A stretch of 64,000 bases of DNA, from contig NZ_AOIB01000020.1 in the NCBI RefSeq assembly GCF_000337675.1, positions 1 to 64,000 on the forward strand, written 5' to 3'. The notes below the pieces were generated by a model. It saw only the letters and a list, made by a program, of their open reading frames with translations. It had not been told where the DNA came from and ran no database searches. Position numbers and translations under genes: made by a program. Shown in pieces: positions 3,385 to 51,982 of this stretch. Origin of the DNA: Natronococcus amylolyticus DSM 10524. GTDB lineage: Archaea > Halobacteriota > Halobacteria > Halobacteriales > Natrialbaceae. How positions within the stretch are numbered: position 1 is the stretch's first letter; each line of letters begins with the position of its first letter.

Positions 3385-4587
3385 ATGAACGGCTCCGACG
3401 ACTCGATCGACGTCACCGAGATCGACGAACTGACCCCACCGGACCGGACGCTGATGGGACCGGGTCCCAGCGACGTCCACCCCCGCGTGTTGCGAGCGAT
3501 GAGCACCCCGCTCGTCGGCCATCTCGACCCCTCGTTCGTCGAGATCATGAACGAGGTACAGGAGTTGCTGCGATACACGTTCCGGACCGACAACCGGTGG
3601 ACGATCCCGGTCTCGGGGACCGGCTCGGCCGCGATGGAGGCGGCGATCGGCAACGTCGTCGAACCCGGCGATACGATGCTGGTGCCGACGAACGGCTACT
3701 TCGGCGGCCGGATGGCCTCGATGGCTCGCCGCGCCGGCGGCGACGTCGTCGAGGTCGACGCGCCGTGGGGCGAACCGCTCGAGCCGGCGGCCGTCTCGGA
3801 CGCGCTGGCCGAACACGATCCCGACGTCTTCGGCTTCGTTCACGCCGAGACGAGTACGGGCGTGCTCCAGCCCGACGTTGCCGAACTCACGGCAGCGGCT
3901 CACGACCACGACGCGCTGGTGATCGCCGACACCGTCACCTCGCTGGGCGGGGTCGAACTCCGCGTCGACGAGTGGGACATCGACGTCGCCTACTCCGGCC
4001 CCCAGAAGTGTCTCTCCTGTCCGCCCGGCGCGAGCCCGCTGACGCTGTCCGAGACGGCGATGGAGAAGGTCCTCTCCCGCGAGGAAGAGCCCCGGTCGTG
4101 GTACCTCGACCTCTCCCTGCTCGAGGGCTACTGGGGCGACGAGCGCGCGTACCACCACACCGCACCCGTCACGAACGTCTACGCGCTGCGGGAGGCGCTC
4201 CGACTGGTTGCCGAGGAGGGAATCGAACACCGCTGGGAGCGCCACGAGCGTCTGGCCGGCGCGCTGAAAGCCGGCGTCGAGGGGATGGGTCTGGAGATGA
4301 ACGCCCCCGATGAGTACTGGCTCCCGAGTCTGAACGCCGTCCGAGTTCCCAACGGGGTTGACGACGGCGAGGTCTGTACCGAACTGCTCGAGCGCTACGA
4401 TCTCGAGGTCGCGAACGGACTCGGCGATCTGGAGGGTGAGATCTTCCGCGTCGGCTGTATGGGCCACTCCGCGCGACCCCAGAACGTGATCTACGCGGTG
4501 ACGGCGTTGGGTGACGTCCTCGAGTCGATGGGGGCGGACGTCGACCCGGGCGCCGGTGTAACTGCGACGCGCGGGGCGCTGGAGTAA
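3385..4587 (+). CDS. Class V aminotransferase (alanine-glyoxylate / serine-pyruvate type)
   Basis: A 400-residue PLP enzyme of the alanine-glyoxylate aminotransferase group. It begins its domain with [14 protein letters not shown] (23-36), has a substrate-loop [11 protein letters not shown] (77-87), the PLP-ring aspartate in ADTVTSLGG (D182 region) and the Schiff-base lysine in [12 protein letters not shown] (K208). These mark it as an amino-group transfer enzyme acting on small amino acids and 2-oxo acids such as glyoxylate or pyruvate; the exact substrates cannot be read from sequence. It is monocistronic and preceded by a 133-base gap facing the divergent dodecin gene. Confidence 0.88.
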
Positions 4588-21930: not shown

Positions 21931-22800
21931 TCAGTCGGTCCGCCCACCGAACGCGTCGGCGATCACGGCCGCGTCCTGCGTCTCCGCGACGTCGTGCGTT
22001 CGGACGACGTCCGCGCCGCGTTCGATCGCCATCGCCGTCGCCGCCAGACTCGCCGGGAGGCGGTCCTCGGTCTCCCGGCCGACGAGATCGCCGAGGAAGT
22101 TCTTCCGGTTGATCGAGACCAGCATCGGTCGCTCGAGTGATCGAAACTCCGCGAGTCGGCGGAACGTCTCCCGGTCGTCGTCGACGGTCTGGGCCTCGCT
22201 CCAGCCGCCGAAGGCGGGGTCGACGATCGTCCTGTCGGTGAGACCGTTCTGTTTCAGCGCCTCGTACACCTGATCGACGTAGTCGGCCTCGGCGGCCCAG
22301 TCCGGCGACTTCCGGGTGGCCCAGTCGGTTTCCTCGACCGCACCGGGTCGCTCGAGATCCGGCGGGCTGGCCATCTTCGCGACGACGGCGTCGTGGGCCT
22401 TACAGACAGCCGGCATCTGTGGATCCGCGAACCCGCAGATGTCGTTGACCATGTCGAACCCCCGCTCGAGGGCCGCGTCGGCGACCTCGTGGTATCGGGT
22501 TTCGATCGAGAAGACCGCCTCGCCCTCGACGCGGTCGATCGTTTCGCAGGCGACGTGGAGCCGCTCGAGTTCCTCTTCGGCCGACAGCACCTCGAAGCGC
22601 TTGTTCGCCGACTCGAGGCCGACGTCGACGATGTCGGCACCCTCGCCGATCAGGTCCTCGTCCACGTAACGGGCCGCCTCGCCGGGGTCGTCGTAGACGC
22701 TCGGATCGTACGGCGACTCCTCGCTGACGTTCAACACACCCATGATTCGGGTCGGATGCCCGTCACCGATCCCGAGTCCGGCCGCGTCGACGCTGTGCAT
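21931..22800 (-). CDS. folP: Dihydropteroate synthase
   Basis: A 289-residue enzyme that condenses the activated pterin with an aminobenzoate-type partner. The two DHPS signatures are recognisable: IMGVLNVSEESPYDPSVY near the N terminus and GADIVDVGLESANKRFEV shortly after; the later DMVNDICGFADPQM, FGGWSEAQTVDD and SINRKNFLGDL regions fit the TIM barrel. SINRKNFLG replaces the bacterial version of the SRK motif. The ATG at 22800 gives the normal N terminus. It lies 94 bases downstream of orc1 on the same strand. Confidence 0.92.
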   Translation of the reverse strand: MHSVDAAGLGIGDGHPTRIMGVLNVSEESPYDPSVYDDPGEAARYVDEDLIGEGADIVDVGLESANKRFEVLSAEEELERLHVACETIDRVEGEAVFSIETRYHEVADAALERGFDMVNDICGFADPQMPAVCKAHDAVVAKMASPPDLERPGAVEETDWATRKSPDWAAEADYVDQVYEALKQNGLTDRTIVDPAFGGWSEAQTVDDDRETFRRLAEFRSLERPMLVSINRKNFLGDLVGRETEDRLPASLAATAMAIERGADVVRTHDVAETQDAAVIADAFGGRTD

Positions 22801-22894: not shown

Positions 22895-24124
22895 CTACGA
22901 GTCGCTCTCGAGCGGAGCCAGCCGGGAGTCCCGGAGGAGGACCTTCTTGACGATGGCGGGGTTCTCGAGCAGGCGGTGTTTCGCATGGGCGCCACGGCCC
23001 CGTCCCCGACCCTCGCGTTCGGACTGGATGACGTTCAGGAAGTTCTGCTCCTGAAGGATCTCCTGAACCCGTCGCTCGGAGAGGACGTCGAAGTCGAGCC
23101 GGCGGGCGACCTCCTTGTACTGGTTGTAGATGATCTTCGTCGGGAACTCCTTCTCGGAGCTGTTCTCGGTCAACAGCGTCAGCGAGTAGAGGATCGCCTT
23201 CGCCTGCTGGGGCGAGCCCTCGATCAGCTCGTTGAACCGGTCGGCCTCGGTCTTCTCCTTGGCGTCGCGAACGTGGTCAGCGGTGACGCGGTCGGCGTTC
23301 TGTTTTTTCGCGATGCGGCCCGCGTTCCGGAGGATGTCGATCGCCTTGCGCGCGTCGCCGTGTTCCTGGGCTGCCAGCGCGGCCGTCAGCGGGATGACGT
23401 CCCCCGAAAGCACCTCGTCGTGGAAGGCGTCGCGGCGTTTTTCCAGGATCTCGACGAGCTGGTTGGCGTCGTACGGCGAGAAGACGAGCTCGTCCCGCGA
23501 GAGGCTCGACTTGACCCGCTCCGAGAGGTGGTCAGGGAAGTCGATCTTGTTCGAGATACCGATAATACCGATGCTCGAGTCCGAGATTCGGCGGTTCTCG
23601 CCCGCTCGCGAGAGCTTTCGCAGCACCTCGTCGTTCTCGAGCATGTCGATCTCGTCTAAGATGACGATAGTGACGTCCGTACAGCGATCGACGGCCTGCC
23701 AGAGCCGCTTGTAGTAGTCACCGGTCCCCAGCCCGCGGTCGGGAACGGTGATTCCGCTCTGTTCGGGGTCGTTGACTAACTGGGCGATCGTTTTGACGAT
23801 CGACGCCTCGGTGTTCTGTTCGCCACAGTCGATGAAGGCGTAGTTGACCGTAACGTCGTCGCGCTTTGCCTCCGATATGACCCGCTTGGTCACCGACCTC
23901 GAAATCAGGGATTTGCCGGTTCCGGTCTTCCCGAAGATAAACAGGTGGTTCGGCTCACTGCCGAAGATAGCGGGGTTCAGGGCGTCCGCAACGCGTTGCA
24001 TCTGCTCGTCGCGACCGACGATCCGGTCCGGGCCGGGCAGGTGCGTGATCTCGAGCAGCCGCTCGTCGGCGAAGATCGGATCGTCGTATCGGAAGAGCGG
24101 ATCACGGTCGTCGTTCGCGGACAT
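22895..24124 (-). CDS. orc1: Origin recognition protein Orc1/Cdc6
   Basis: A 409-residue AAA+ initiator that binds origin recognition boxes and loads the MCM helicase. Walker A is GKTGTGKS (65-72), Walker B VTIVILDEID (151-160), sensor 1 is in IIGISNK, and the C-terminal winged helix with ERRVQEILQEQNFLNV and RGRGRGAHAKHR binds DNA. Its start faces a 1.1-kb non-coding region with ORB-like repeats, the usual arrangement of a haloarchaeal oriC with its own initiator gene. This looks like the main chromosomal Orc1 rather than an accessory paralogue, which is inference. Confidence 0.96.
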   Translation of the reverse strand: MSANDDRDPLFRYDDPIFADERLLEITHLPGPDRIVGRDEQMQRVADALNPAIFGSEPNHLFIFGKTGTGKSLISRSVTKRVISEAKRDDVTVNYAFIDCGEQNTEASIVKTIAQLVNDPEQSGITVPDRGLGTGDYYKRLWQAVDRCTDVTIVILDEIDMLENDEVLRKLSRAGENRRISDSSIGIIGISNKIDFPDHLSERVKSSLSRDELVFSPYDANQLVEILEKRRDAFHDEVLSGDVIPLTAALAAQEHGDARKAIDILRNAGRIAKKQNADRVTADHVRDAKEKTEADRFNELIEGSPQQAKAILYSLTLLTENSSEKEFPTKIIYNQYKEVARRLDFDVLSERRVQEILQEQNFLNVIQSEREGRGRGRGAHAKHRLLENPAIVKKVLLRDSRLAPLESDS

Positions 24125-24175
24125 TGCAGTACCCCGTCCCTTCCAACCGGACTAAAATAAAGGTATGGAGATCAG

Positions 24176-24189
24176 TCGCGGATGTAAAC
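24176..24189 (-). repeat. ORB half-site
   Basis: Reverse complement GTTTACATCCGCGA matches the first half of the boxes at 24301 and 24471 but lacks the G-string. A weak plus-strand relative, AAACGCGTGAGGGGCG, follows at 24191-24206. Confidence 0.4.
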
Positions 24190-24300
24190 CAAACGCGTGA
24201 GGGGCGCTATACCGCATCTAAAGGCCATCCACTTGGTCCGGAAGATATCGCCGGCCTCGCGCTTGTGAACGGGGCGGACGCGTGGGAACCTCCGACGGGC

Positions 24301-24320
24301 ACCCCCCTCGCGGATGTAAC
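24301..24320 (-). repeat. ORB-like box D
   Basis: On the minus strand it reads GTTACATCCGCGAGGGGGGT, with the archaeal-type G-string. The first 13 bases are identical to those of the box at 24471-24496. Confidence 0.65.
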
Positions 24321-24470
24321 GGGTTCCGAGCCCCGCTACTCTGCGGGAACCTCCGGCCACCTTCCCGACCCGGAAGGGAGGAGAGATCCGAAAAATCAGT
24401 ACTGGCCGTATGAGGAGCCGAAGGCAGCGTTGTTACCGGTTTCCGTTCGTGTCAACCGATCCGCGGGAGG

Positions 24471-24496
24471 ACACACACCTCCGTCGCGGATGTAAC
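24471..24496 (-). repeat. ORB-like box A
   Basis: On the minus strand it begins GTTACATCCGCGACGGAGGT and ends GTGTGT. It is inverted relative to the boxes at 24564 and 24620, giving the inverted arrangement seen at haloarchaeal origins. Confidence 0.7.
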
Positions 24497-24563
24497 GCCG
24501 AACGGGTGGGGGGTCTCGAGCTAAGGGCCGAAATTCGACGGTTTCTGTCGCTGAGAATATACA

Positions 24564-24590
24564 TTTACAACCGCGACGGAGGTGTGTAAC
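24564..24590 (+). repeat. ORB-like box B
   Basis: The plus strand begins TTTACAACCGCGACGGAGGT and continues GTGTAAC. It differs from box A at only two of the first 20 aligned bases, in opposite orientation. The AT-rich GAGAATATACATTTAC lies just upstream. Confidence 0.7.
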
Positions 24591-24619
24591 CGATCAGAAC
24601 CCTCCCACACCTGTACAGC

Positions 24620-24643
24620 GTTACAAACGCGAAGGGGGTGTGT
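24620..24643 (+). repeat. ORB-like box C
   Basis: The plus strand begins GTTACAAACGCGAAGGGGGT and ends GTGT. It has the strongest G-string of the set and the same orientation as box B, with starts 56 bases apart. Confidence 0.7.
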
Positions 24644-24823
24644 CCCCTCGAAACGGAACGCTCGACCCGGGTGGACCGCCTCGAGAAGGTCGAAACCGTC
24701 GAAGAAAAGAAGAAGCGAACGGACGGAGAGAGTGTTCTCACGGCCGAGAACGATCACGGACGGCGGTTGGCAGTAGATACGGGAAGTCGAACGATGCTTC
24801 GGGAGTTGGCCTCAACGTACTAC

Positions 24824-24856
24824 TACTAGACTAGTTCTTCTTACTAGACTAGTTCT
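24824..24856. repeat. 15-base direct repeat in the origin region
   Basis: TACTAGACTAGTTCT occurs at 24824-24838 and again at 24842-24856, 18 bases apart. Each contains the palindrome CTAG twice. It directly precedes the pyrimidine-rich, AT-rich tract. Confidence 0.6.
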
Positions 24857-24945
24857 CTCTTCTCCTCCACCCATCCACCTACTCCACCTATTGTACCCAT
24901 TGCATTTATTGCACCCATTAAATAACCCCTACAACTCACACCTAT
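24857..24945. other. AT/pyrimidine-rich tract, candidate unwinding element
   Basis: A stretch almost without G on the plus strand, running from CTCTCTTCTCCTCC to ATTGCACCCATTAAATAACC and containing repeated CCCATT and CACCTA units. Its strong strand bias and AT content contrast with the surrounding high-GC DNA and fit a duplex-unwinding element. Inference from composition and position. Confidence 0.45.
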
Positions 24946-25230
24946 CGATTCTATCGTAGAAATCCTGCAATTCTCTTCTCTTCACCGCTCCGATGACGTC
25001 GCTCACCGAGAGACACCTTCTCATGACGACATCGCCAGCCCGGATCACTCTCGCTACCGCTCGAGCGCTCCCCCTCGAGTCAGCTTCCGGCTCGAGACGC
25101 GTCCGGGACCAGTCGACTTTTGCGAGCGGCCTCGCTACCGACGGTATGAACCGCCGACTCCAGTCTCTCCCTCGAGTCGACGCTCGCACTCGAGTACGCC
25201 GAAACAGCTTCCGCCAGCGACGGCCGAACC

Positions 25231-26013
25231 ATGACTGAACCGACCGAACCAACCACGGACGACCCGAACACGACCGCCGCCGACCGAACGCCGCCATCGG
25301 TTGCCATCGTCGACGCGAAGACGCCGGGCAACGTCGGCACCATCGCCCGCGCGATGAAGAACTTCGGATTCGAGGACCTCCTGCTCGTCGACCCCCCCGA
25401 GCTCGACCCCGACGGCGAGGCGTACGGATTCGCCGGGCAGGCCCGAGAGGATATCCTCCCGAACGCGACCGAGCTCTCGTTCGACGAGCTCGCCGAGAGC
25501 TACCATACGATCGGCTGTACCGCGGTCACGAACGAGGACGACCGCAGCCACATGCGCTACCCATACTCGACGCCGGCCGACTTAGCCGAGCGACTGCCGA
25601 CCATCGAGGCGCCGACGGCGCTGGTCTTCGGTCGCGAACGCGTCGGGCTCACCAACGAGGAGCTCGCGCGGATCGACGAGATCTGTGCGATCCCCGCGAG
25701 CGAGGACTACCCCGTGCTGAACCTCGGTCAGGCCGCGACGGTGACGCTGTACGAACTCCGTACGCTCACGCTTCCCGCCGACGGAACGCAGCTACCCGAC
25801 CTCGAGCGCACCCGGGCACCGGAGCCGACCCTCGATCGGCTCTACGACCAGTGGGGCGCCCTGCTCGAGGAGCTCAACCATCCCGACGAGAAACGCGACA
25901 AGACGATGCGGATGCTCCGGCGGGTGTTCGGCCGCGCGGATCTGACCGAACGCGAGGCGAACACGCTGCTTGGGGTTCTCCGCAGAGCGACGGAGCGCCC
26001 CGCCGAGGACTGA
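25231..26013 (+). CDS. SPOUT-class RNA methyltransferase, TrmJ-like
   Basis: A 260-residue methyltransferase of the TrmH/SpoU group 1 type, expected to 2'-O-methylate a tRNA nucleotide (position 32 in characterised archaeal TrmJ). Motif 1 is VDAKTPGNVGTIARAMKNFG, motif 2 ALVFGRERVGLTNEEL and motif 3 YPVLNLGQAATVTLYEL, which together form the knotted S-adenosylmethionine site. A C-terminal helical extension of about 90 residues is present. It is the first gene on the right side of the putative origin and points away from it. Confidence 0.9.
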   Translation: MTEPTEPTTDDPNTTAADRTPPSVAIVDAKTPGNVGTIARAMKNFGFEDLLLVDPPELDPDGEAYGFAGQAREDILPNATELSFDELAESYHTIGCTAVTNEDDRSHMRYPYSTPADLAERLPTIEAPTALVFGRERVGLTNEELARIDEICAIPASEDYPVLNLGQAATVTLYELRTLTLPADGTQLPDLERTRAPEPTLDRLYDQWGALLEELNHPDEKRDKTMRMLRRVFGRADLTEREANTLLGVLRRATERPAED

Positions 26014-48516: not shown

Positions 48517-49397
48517 CCCACGTCTGCCGTTCGCCGAACTCGGTCGTAGCGTCTCTCCGTCGAACCGCAACCGATCGAATCGATATATCGAAATAGGATT
48601 TACGAGTCCATTTTCCATCATCCGATACCCTCATACGGACCGATCATTCCAATAGACACCTCACTGTAACGATATGTTTTCATTGTGTGCTCCCGGATCG
48701 CCGGAGACGTAGCACATCACAACGAGTCGGACACGGTGAGGAGTCGGCAACGGGGCCCCTATATAGTTGGACTGGGAACGGCTGAACTCGAGTGTTGCGG
48801 ACCGAGCGAGTGTGCAAGCCGCGGTTCGTCCAGACGCCTCGGGGCCCACCCTCGTTGCTGTAGCAAGTGAGGAAACCATCGCTTCGAACCTCGTTACGCT
48901 CCGTCGCTCCTGGTACAAACGCGATCGTAGCGACCGCTGTCCCTCAACTACGCGGGCGTATCGATATCCGGTACACCCGTCGAAGTTCGGGACCAGTGTT
49001 GTAACGCCCTCACTCCCCGACCGGAGCCCTCGTGACCCTTCACAGCCACGACGGAGGTGGTACTGGGGGGTCAGGAACTCGATGCTGTTTTCGCCGCTTT
49101 CCGTTCGGATCGTCTCGACTAGAGACGCGACTCCCACCACCGGGTTCCGACGCCCGTCGGAGTCGAACCGAAACTCACTCGAGGTCACAGCGGGACGGCG
49201 CAGAAGGCTCGGCTGTAGCCGTCCGCAGAACGCGACACGTTCTGCAGCCGAGATGAACCGACGATTCGCCGACCGTCGGAGAGCGTAACACTCCAAAAGG
49301 CTTCACGAGATCGAAGATCTGCGAACGTGAGAGCAAGTACGGATGCACTCGTTGACCTCGAGTGTTACCGGAAGGGTACGTCCAACGGACCCAGAGG

Positions 49398-49480
49398 TAT
49401 AGTAGACGCTGAAACGATTGACACACTGACACTCTGTCGTACGGTGATCAGATGTACACTGACGCTCAGCGTCTACTATA
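49398..49480. mobile_element. 83-base MITE-like element
   Basis: Perfect 15-base terminal inverted repeats, TATAGTAGACGCTGA (49398-49412) and TCAGCGTCTACTATA (49466-49480), enclose 53 bases with no coding capacity. The outer TA at each end could be the target duplication left by an IS630/Tc1-type transposase. Inside, ACACTGAC occurs twice. It is likely a non-autonomous element moved by a transposase encoded elsewhere. Confidence 0.7.
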
Positions 49481-49949
49481 GCCGGTGGGACGAACTGTCT
49501 ATTCGAAATCCGGATAGACGAGTGCACTGTTCCGACTCCCGCGCCGAAGCCTTCTGAGAAGTCTCTCGATGAGAGTACCGGGAACGTAGAGCTTTCCTCA
49601 GGGGGGGTGAAGTACGGGAGTCAGCTGTCATGCCCACGAACTCACTCGTGGGGCGCCGACCGAATACGTCCCGTCCCCATAGCCGACGGTCCCGGGGAAA
49701 ACTCTCGGAACCGGAGGTCAATGGAGGAACCACTCTCGGCCACCCTGTTCGGGGGTAACCGAGAGCGACAGAAAGTGTTACCGTCCGGTGAATACTCCTG
49801 TATCGCGTCCCGTGCTATTAGCGATAACAACGACAAGGGACCTCTCGTCCAACGATAGGGGAACCAGAAGCGATTCGGTATCGAGACTCCGGGTGCGGGG
49901 GTCGTAGCGACCTTTCATCGAAGCAGGTAGTTCAGTGACATCCCTCCGG

Positions 49950-50210
49950 GTCAAGCGCTTCGAGAGAACCTCGCACTCTCGTCAGCGAGCGAAACCAACG
50001 GTTCGCGGACCTCACCGAACGGACCGAACGGTGTCACCGACACCGTCGTCATCACGAGACCGCGTTGCCGTCTCGAACGACTTCGTTCCGCTCAGTCACG
50101 AAAGACGAACTCTTCCGTACGACCCCAGGACACTCTCGCTGTACCGCTGTAGAGGGCGTCGAATTTCCCTCGAGCGCCGGTGTTCACAGGACCCTTCGGT
50201 CACTTGCGGA
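49950..50210 (+). repeat. Decayed relative of the palindrome-modular repeat
   Basis: Bases from about 49965 follow the order of copy 2's inner block: TTCGAGAGA, CTCTCGTCA, AGCGAAACC, GGTTCGCGGA, then (after extra sequence) CGCTCAGTCACGAAAG and finally CCCTCGAGCG. The individual stem-loops have lost perfect pairing. Boundaries are uncertain and neither of the two conserved element ends is clearly present. Confidence 0.5.
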
Positions 50211-50481
50211 CAGCAACTCAATAACCCGTCGACGATTTGGTTCGGTTCGCGTGTTCGACTACCGAACAGTAGCGTCGCTGACCGACCCGCGGCTGTTCGC
50301 GTCCTCCCTAGTCGTCCTCGATCGGAGCGATTCCTCTTCACAGAAGGGCCGCGATTCGCTCGCGTTCCCTTTCTCGAGGCTTCGATACATCTTGAACTTT
50401 AGTCCCATCGATTAGCTGACTGTATCCGGAACTACGGACCTAGCCCCATCTAAATACGGACTCGTGACCAAAATACACTGC

Positions 50482-50519
50482 GATAACTAAGTCACGAACT
50501 CGAGATAAGGATCGTTATC
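50482..50519. promoter_or_regulatory. Inverted repeat upstream of the recombinase pair
   Basis: GATAAC (50482-50487) and GTTATC (50514-50519) form a six-base dyad with a 26-base AT-richer centre, 47-84 bases before the ATG at 50566. It could be an operator for the ribbon-helix-helix-like protein or a recombination core site. Short dyads of this size are common by chance. Confidence 0.25.
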
Positions 50520-50565
50520 CCGAAATACAACAAGGTTGATGGTCCGCGCGTCTGAGTAGTCGTGT

Positions 50566-50955
50566 ATGGCTGACTCGACGGAGACGTCTAAATCGTCTGT
50601 CAGAACGTACGTTCCTCCCTACCAGAAAGAAGAGTGGCAATCTCACGCCGACGACCTCGGAATGAGTCAAAGCGAGTTCGTTCGGACGATGGTCCAGGCC
50701 GGACGACGCGGATTCGAGGGCGACCTCGAGGAACCCGGTTCTCCGGACGAAGACCCCAGGGGTAACGCCCTCGAAACACGTCTCCTCGAGTTACTGTCCA
50801 CTGACACCTACACGTGGGACGAACTCCTCGAGGCGGTTAGCGACGACATCGAGTCTCGCCTCGACGACACGCTCGAGGAGCTCCAGGCCGAGAACCGGGT
50901 TCGGTACAGCGGACGCCACGGCGGGTACACGATCGTGGGTGACGATGGCGAGTAG
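50566..50955 (+). CDS. DUF5805-type small DNA-binding protein
   Basis: A 129-residue protein with two parts. The N-terminal part (VRTYVPPYQKEEWQSHADDL and GMSQSEFVRTMVQAGRRGFE) is of the ribbon-helix-helix type. The C-terminal part (LETRLLELLSTDTYTWDELL to NRVRYSGRHGGYTIVGDD) looks like a winged helix. It overlaps the following recombinase gene by 11 bases, so the two are coupled; it probably controls or assists recombination. Such pairs are frequent in haloarchaeal genomes. Confidence 0.8.
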   Translation: MADSTETSKSSVRTYVPPYQKEEWQSHADDLGMSQSEFVRTMVQAGRRGFEGDLEEPGSPDEDPRGNALETRLLELLSTDTYTWDELLEAVSDDIESRLDDTLEELQAENRVRYSGRHGGYTIVGDDGE

Positions 50956-51982
50956 CGTCGACGCCCCCGACACGATCGAGGATCCGATCGCGTACTTCCT
51001 GGACGACCAGCGCTACCACGGCAAGAGCGAGCGCACCCTCGAGGCCTACCAGCGAGTGCTCCGGCAGTTCGAAGCGTTCGTTCGCGAACGCTTCGACGCC
51101 GAGGCGGTGTCGGCGGTCGGTCGACGGGAGTGTATGGCCTGGGTGCACTCGCTACGCGAGCGATTCGAATCGAGTACGATCGCGACCTACGCCTCCTATC
51201 TCAACCGCTTCTACGAGTACATGAATCGGGTCGGCGCGTTCGAGGAGAATCCGATGGTACTCGTGATGGAGGAGCTGTCCGAATCGATCGACGCGAATCC
51301 GACCCGACGGGATATCTCGGTGCCGGAGATGCGCGAGTTCGTCGGCTCGATCGCTCATCCCCTCGAGCGCGCGGTCGTCGTTACCCTGCTGAAGACGGGG
51401 ATGCGGGTGGGTGAACTCTGTAACCTCGATTTGCGGGACTGTCACCTCGCGGTTCCGGAGCTCGATCTCGAGTGGACGCCGCGGGTGGAACTCGAGCGAC
51501 GCCCGGCCTCGCTGTTCGTCGACCCCGAACTGGCACGCGGGCGGACGGTCAACGGCGAGGAGCGAACGGCCTCGAACAAACGAAAGCGGGAGACGGTGAT
51601 TCCCGTCGACGACGAACTTCGGCAAGTGCTGCTCGAGTGGCTGGCGATCCGGCCGGATCCGGTGTCGCCGGCCGACCCCCTCTTTCTCGACACCCGCGAC
51701 AGCTGGGGCGAGCGACTCGAGCCCGCGGACGTCCGGTACGTCGTCGAGAAACACGCCCGGGAACGAGGTTGGTACCGAACGGGCGGCGGGGCGACCGAGA
51801 ACGTCACCCCCCATTACTTTCGGCACTTCTTCACGACCCACCTGCGGGATCGGACGGGTGATCGGGGGATTGTCAAGTATCTCCGCGGAGACGTCGCAAG
51901 CGATATCATCGACACCTACACCCACAACTGGGGCGATCAGGTCCGGACGGTCTATGAACGGAACGTCTACTCGCTGTCCTGA
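50945..51982 (+). CDS. Tyrosine recombinase / integrase
   Basis: A 345-residue site-specific recombinase. The N-terminal SAM-like core-binding domain covers about residues 12-110. The catalytic domain has R154 (TGMRVGELCNLDLRD), a Lys in NKRKRETVIPV, H290-x-x-R293 (TPHYFRHFFTTHLRDR) and the nucleophile Tyr325 in DTYTHNW. The usual LGH histidine before the Tyr is replaced by LRGD (313-316), so one catalytic residue appears to be missing or shifted. The ATG at 50945 is chosen; a GTG at 50939 is an alternative. Confidence 0.88.
   Translation: MASSVDAPDTIEDPIAYFLDDQRYHGKSERTLEAYQRVLRQFEAFVRERFDAEAVSAVGRRECMAWVHSLRERFESSTIATYASYLNRFYEYMNRVGAFEENPMVLVMEELSESIDANPTRRDISVPEMREFVGSIAHPLERAVVVTLLKTGMRVGELCNLDLRDCHLAVPELDLEWTPRVELERRPASLFVDPELARGRTVNGEERTASNKRKRETVIPVDDELRQVLLEWLAIRPDPVSPADPLFLDTRDSWGERLEPADVRYVVEKHARERGWYRTGGGATENVTPHYFRHFFTTHLRDRTGDRGIVKYLRGDVASDIIDTYTHNWGDQVRTVYERNVYSLS

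Follow-up and report, generated by a model that had tools for sequence, protein, structure and literature searches.

The closest described relatives of the locus analysed here are the secondary haloarchaeal origins that adjoin orc/cdc6 genes (Wu et al. 2012, PMC3528665; Wu et al. 2014, PMC4441112). The accessible text of these reports describes inverted ORBs with G-strings located directly upstream of orc, box families that are tied to Orc families, a patchy and sometimes plasmid-borne distribution, and coupled insertion and deletion as the proposed route of origin gain. These traits recur in the locus beside orc1 of Natronococcus amylolyticus DSM 10524, including the coupled insertion and deletion at its site. 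Compared with the origins described in that text, the locus differs in the letters of its box (TTACANNCGCGANGGNGGTG) and in its site, which lies between core genes and is kept across many genera. A further relative is oriC1 of Haloarcula hispanica (Wu et al. 2013, PMC3936714), which, in the part of the paper available to us, resembles our locus in having an A+T-richer gap between inverted G-string ORBs and a G-rich tract just inside an ORB, but differs in its Orc and its box letters; the G-rich repeat of H. hispanica is two-sided and enhances firing. Finally, haloarchaeal CTAG clusters upstream of orc genes have been reported (Blow et al. 2016, PMC4752239; within the accessible portion, the text gives CATG and a figure legend CTAG).

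Against this background, the element described here belongs to a known kind, of which it is an exceptionally clear case. We consider it quite probable that the segment from position 24125 to about 24860 serves as a secondary Orc-ORB replication origin of the chromosome, with firing there predicted from the sequence.

ORB boxes upstream of an intact orc1 gene

The window, that is, the whole stretch of 64 kb that was analysed, is the first part of a 112-kb contig in a draft genome of 4,416,525 bases and 44 contigs. The orc1/cdc6 initiator gene (22895..24124, minus strand) encodes an AAA+ ATPase with a Cdc6 lid and a C-terminal winged helix. As stated in the original prediction, which was made from the same DNA, the gene is intact: it has the full 409 codons, and its product matches Pfam Cdc6_lid and Cdc6_C and scores 410 bits against TIGR02928, well above the cut-off of 181. 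To the left of the insertion site lies a dihydropteroate synthase gene (21931..22752, minus strand; TIGR01496), and to the right, a trmJ-like RNA methyltransferase gene (25231..26013, plus strand; TIGR00050). The 1.1 kb in front of orc1 had been described as non-coding. The ORF list does contain ORFs of 81-138 codons that traverse the orc1-trmJ interval, but because four of five same-genus loci show no alignment to the central part of the tail (about 24690-25070), these are probably chance ORFs. Rfam and tRNA scans of the 64-kb window returned no matches.

Four boxes in this interval match TTACANNCGCGANGGNGGTG exactly. The inner inverted pair consists of B3 as the left arm (24476..24495, minus strand; inverted repeat I2, 96%) and B2 as the right arm (24565..24584, plus strand); the outer boxes are B4 on the orc1 side (24300..24319, minus strand) and B1 on the trmJ side (24621..24640, plus strand; 56 bp from B2). 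The four inverted boxes predicted at 24301, 24471, 24564 and 24620 are all within 5 bases of B4, B3, B2 and B1, respectively. Two weaker boxes had been overlooked, namely, a half-box near 24176 and a degenerate ORB (24249..24268, minus strand) that has 3 mismatches and lies 144 bp upstream of the orc1 start codon; a counterpart of the latter at about -144 is visible by eye in most orthologs. Both weaker boxes form part of the element, as does the CTAG cluster described below. B1-B4 are the only exact matches to TTACANNCGCGANGGNGGTG in the whole genome (4/4 in 4,416,525 bases), and a backward control pattern had none. When up to 3 mismatches were allowed, the window contained 6 matches against a shuffle mean of 0.61, and none of 100 shuffles reached 6. 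A literature search with four 12-mers of the box gave no match within a scope that did not extend to Additional file 4 of Wu et al. 2012, which may well list these letters.

Conserved layout of the boxes and the orc1 promoter

For comparison, we used the window and 48 named orthologous loci from many genera (n=49), drawn from one contig scan that returned 61 loci; the remaining 13 were left out because their Orc match was only 31-46%. The inverted B3/B2 pair is present in 49/49 loci, with a gap of 62-72 bp (71 bp in 27 loci, 70 in 12, 69 in 5, 68 in 2, 62 in 2 and 72 in 1). The B1-B2 spacing is similarly tight, at 52-56 bp in all 49 loci and exactly 54 bp in 40 of these. B4 is found in 48 of the 49, with the single exception of L131 (Natribaculum), and lies between 77 and 602 bp away from B3. 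Pooling of the boxes (n=195) yields the consensus TTACA(A/T)(A/C)CGCGANGGNGGTGTGT, which is partly circular, the boxes having been picked by pattern.

The central gap of the inverted pair (24496..24564, 69 bp) is the presumed unwinding region. Its A+T content is 43% in the window locus, and the mean over the 49 loci is 44%, compared with 35% for the whole window (G+C 65%); the thirds of the gap have A+T fractions of 0.51, 0.52 and 0.31, and the gap is richer in A+T towards B2. The A+T content of the gap is no more than moderate, which counts against a secondary origin. A G-rich tract (24504..24513, plus strand) adjoins B3. At least 7 C per 10-mer on the orc1-sense strand are found beside B3 in 45/49 loci, and an inverted partner beside B2 in 1/49, so that the tract is one-sided, in contrast to the two-sided G-rich inverted repeat of H. 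hispanica oriC1 (PMC3936714, accessible part).

In front of orc1, we read from the sequence a TATA box (TTTATTTTA, 24153-24161, minus strand) and a BRE-like element (CTCCATACC, 24162-24170, minus strand); the naming of CTCCATACC-TTTATTTTA as BRE/TATA is our assumption. TTTAT is present at -45..-25 in 47/49 orthologs. Adjoining BRE/TATA, 63 bp upstream of the orc1 start codon, is a half ORB without the G-string (TTTACATCCGCGA, 24176..24188, minus strand). The strict half-box is found in 46/49 loci; among the others, L090 is one letter off, and in L132 and L133 the half-box is displaced by the start codon used. By analogy with DnaA, a natural guess is that Orc may control its own promoter via this half-box. 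In H. hispanica, loss of the cdc6 promoter reportedly breaks ARS activity (PMC4441112, accessible part).

Because the boxes are unique in the genome, the layout is kept in 49/49 loci and the half-box abuts the TATA/BRE of orc1, we regard the element as a real Orc-ORB replicator. The conserved promoter half-box also fits a different reading, which we consider rather unlikely, namely, that the origin is dormant, the array being kept mainly for the control of orc1 expression or for Orc1 titration while oriC1 and other origins copy the chromosome. Fixation of the half-box near -63 beside TATA in 46/49 loci speaks for such a role. However, the inner pair and the 62-72 bp gap are kept as strictly as the half-box, and a pure autoregulator needs neither.

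The window locus and oriC1

The original prediction was that of a probable oriC beside orc1. An Orc-ORB origin with its own initiator gene is well supported, but the locus is not the established haloarchaeal oriC1. It is true that orc1 is adjacent and the G-string boxes are inverted, and some closed genomes (G112, G128 and G071) are numbered from near the window-type orc1; nevertheless, we consider it extremely improbable that the window locus is the main ancestral origin, oriC1. Among the matches listed in a search of 41 genomes, the best hits of the window Orc beyond its own family are 40-51% identical, except for family f17 (74%), whereas another Orc of the same genome, that on contig C15 (552 codons), is present in 40/41 genomes at E <= 1e-120, with 70-97% identity over the matched part. 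The C15 locus (L017:1936-3100) contains classical ORBs inverted around an A+T-rich stretch with six CTAG sites, and is the oriC1 of this genome. The letters that we take to be classical, CCAGTTGAAAC followed by a long G-string, together with the inverse, are present on C15 and absent from the window boxes.

The distribution of the window Orc agrees with this distinction: its family is found in 117/392 genomes of the order (E <= 1e-150) rather than in all haloarchaea. The window-type origin and oriC1 are separated by 39-42% of the chromosome in five closed chromosomes that have the origin at the site, and by 49% and 30% in two that have the Orc elsewhere. The window origin was very probably acquired later than the ancestral oriC1.

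Plasmid tests, GC skew and a possible mode of initiation

Some experimental evidence comes from plasmid tests in Natrinema sp. J7 (Wang et al. 2017, PMC5350488), of which the accessible part is cited here. In Natrinema gari L115, the PARS-5 primers have sites with 0 mismatches at 4008 and 6310, and orc1 and all the boxes lie between these sites; because both primers match exactly, we take the insert of pFJ5 to be the ortholog of the window locus. pFJ5, carrying ARS-5, replicated in strain J7-F at <10 cfu per microgram, and pFJ1, pFJ4 and pFJ6 yielded about 2 x 10^3 cfu per microgram (PMC5350488). For the same locus, named 'oriC9' in J7, Ori-Finder 2 reported 1 ORB, whereas the N. gari ortholog has four boxes, three of which are exact and one has two mismatches. 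The forward primer of pFJ2 matches near the oriC1 of the genome, with 3/29 mismatches, and pFJ2 gave no transformants (PMC5350488). With pFJ5 weak and pFJ2 without transformants, the plasmid tests rank neither fragment high, and they say little about the chromosome.

We further analysed GC skew in a closed congener (G152), using 76 segments, each of 20 kb, which together cover 1.52 of its 4.01 Mb. The lack of a skew switch, together with the lack of a replication peak, had been proposed in advance as grounds for rejecting an origin at this locus. Right minus left skew within 150 kb of the locus is -0.0100 +- 0.0057, with no origin-like switch; but a clear switch is absent at oriC1 as well, so that GC skew cannot decide origin status. 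Both the weak ARS activity of the Natrinema ortholog and the lack of a skew switch at the locus in G152 fit a dormant origin. Under the preferred interpretation, that of a secondary origin, the window origin is probably weak or conditional and not the main start site. Orc1 would bind to B3 and B2, the two arms of the inverted pair, and to the outer boxes, melt the half of the 69-bp gap that is richer in A+T and load MCM there, and Orc1 bound to the half-box at TATA/BRE would limit its own transcription.

Gene replacement and plasmid-borne relatives

The window Orc family is patchy and includes plasmid-borne copies. Exact or near boxes are found upstream of Orc on plasmids of Natrononativus, Natronosalvus, Haladaptatus, Haloferax and Haloprofundus; these relatives keep the same kind of boxes, with looser geometry in the distant ones. 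Thus, the letters of the ORB are linked to the Orc family, one box family accompanying one Orc family in the genome, in the orthologs and on the plasmids. On a 48-kb plasmid of Haloprofundus salinisoli, the Orc of the window family is the only annotated initiator gene, which argues against an array kept mainly for autoregulation or titration.

The order trmJ - origin - orc1 - dihydropteroate synthase is present in 15/41 genomes. A different set of 16 genomes encodes a 183-codon gene (L348-L363, L305) that has no Pfam match. This gene lies directly before trmJ in 15/16 of these genomes, with dihydropteroate synthase within about 2.3 kb on its other side in 11/16. It is absent from 15/15 genomes with the origin at the site and present in three genomes (G106, G161 and G017) in which the window-family Orc sits elsewhere. 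The order dihydropteroate synthase - 183-codon gene - trmJ is taken as the ancestral one. Because both the gene and an origin at the site are missing from 10/41 genomes, absence of the gene alone proves nothing. The site is occupied in 44 of the 48 named loci (43 by rule and L136 by eye, with trmJ 3.1 kb away), and the 183-codon gene is found within 0/48. At the level of sequence, these comparisons demonstrate that the origin was inserted between the dihydropteroate synthase gene and trmJ, replacing the 183-codon gene there. When 33 Orcs were placed in a tree, the 16 from the site fell together on one side of a single branch (SH-aLRT 98), nested within displaced and plasmid-borne relatives. 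This topology, obtained by a quick method with sparse sampling, may reflect a transfer into the site. The locus documents the fixation of a second chromosomal origin through gene replacement.

A CTAG cluster beyond the outer box

Beyond the boxes, four CTAG sites lie within the repeated TACTAGACTAGTTCT (24826..24852), as identified by CTAG counting and a repeat search. In the window as a whole, CTAG occurs 22 times against 60 expected from trinucleotides. The 44 at-site intergenic stretches contain 294 CTAG in 49,215 bp (5.97 per kb), compared with 108 in 417,712 bp (0.26 per kb) elsewhere in the same 44 loci; at least two sites are present in 43/44 stretches, L111 having none. With the window added, no other of the 16 palindromic tetramers is as over-represented in the at-site stretches as CTAG (1.71 of expectation), and outside of them CTAG ranks lowest of all 16 (0.36 of expectation). 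Most of the sites (244/298) are located past the outer ORB at a distance of 80-320 bp (median 182), in poorly conserved sequence. The cluster resembles those of the orphan m4C methyltransferase of Blow et al. 2016 (PMC4752239) in being non-coding and upstream of orc, and differs from them, as described in the accessible part of that report, in its position at a distance past the outer ORB and in poorly conserved sequence; the same part contains no mention of the window locus. The CTAG cluster adds a strong new case to a principle that is already known.

The position of the boxes and of CTAG between trmJ and dihydropteroate synthase is compatible with regulatory sites of either gene, replication not being involved. 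We hold this to be hardly credible, given that 6/6 origin-less loci have 0 CTAG within 1,500 bp upstream of trmJ and that the boxes accompany Orc onto plasmids. The cluster, some 180 bp past the outer box, would likewise be superfluous for a pure autoregulator, as postulated for a dormant origin.

The CTAG mark is not universal. Among ten displaced or plasmid copies, about half have a tight cluster (L132, L133, L134, L394 and L398), L396 has a looser one, and L131, L392, L393 and L395 show no such cluster. Within 1.5 kb upstream of the 15 Orc loci of the genome, at least 4 CTAG are found in 4/15 and at most 1 in 9/15, the latter including C15, where the stretch is incomplete (oriC1 has 6 CTAG). 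Low G+C content contributes to the clustering but does not explain it, since only 16/351 low-G+C 1-kb windows of the congener reach at least 4 CTAG. A separate array of a 24-bp repeat with one CTAG per copy is found on contig C1 of the congener G152 (L277:17492-17756).

Under the secondary-origin interpretation, CTAG methylation would mark newly copied origins. A candidate orphan CTAG enzyme is a putative 352-codon N4/N6 DNA methyltransferase on contig C40 (L411:457-1515), with SPPY near the N-terminus. H. volcanii can grow without origins and is therefore a poor test of the role of CTAG. A link between CTAG and origins has been doubted for this species, in which one origin is enriched (PMC5867850), and published work treats what CTAG methylation does in haloarchaea as an open question (PMC6471742, PMC10609329), all according to the accessible parts of these sources.

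Taken further, the observations permit a scenario that we put forward only tentatively, as one possibility. A plasmid-type replicator would have been domesticated once, replacing a core-neighbourhood gene in an ancestor of most Natrialbaceae, and would combine three layers of control in one kilobase: a fixed-geometry ORB machine, orc1 autorepression by a G-string-less half-ORB on TATA/BRE, and a CTAG methylation lock that acts after replication, with its cluster at a set distance. The arrangement would be an archaeal counterpart of DnaA autoregulation combined with Dam/SeqA. Two features merit testing, the half-box in the promoter and the CTAG tail with its set distance. The element is small and has strict geometry, a fast-evolving CTAG-rich tail, natural empty sites and plasmid relatives, and its family includes Natrinema J7, which is transformable, so that autoregulation through the half-box and the proposed role of CTAG can both be put to a direct test.

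Other ORB-like sites and Orc genes

Elsewhere in the window, the region 48700-51982 has lower G+C and contains two loose ORB-like sites (48913 and 49040), with no orc seen near either, and a 347-codon ORF that we take to resemble a tyrosine recombinase. A single ORB-like site on contig C21 (10008-10027; L022:1501-1520) is repeated in several genera; it was considered as a titration site and dropped, because it lies inside a reading frame and its conservation is likely that of the protein. Altogether, the genome encodes 15 Orc genes over the family cut-off, of which the copy on contig C30 has an in-frame TAG in its matched part.
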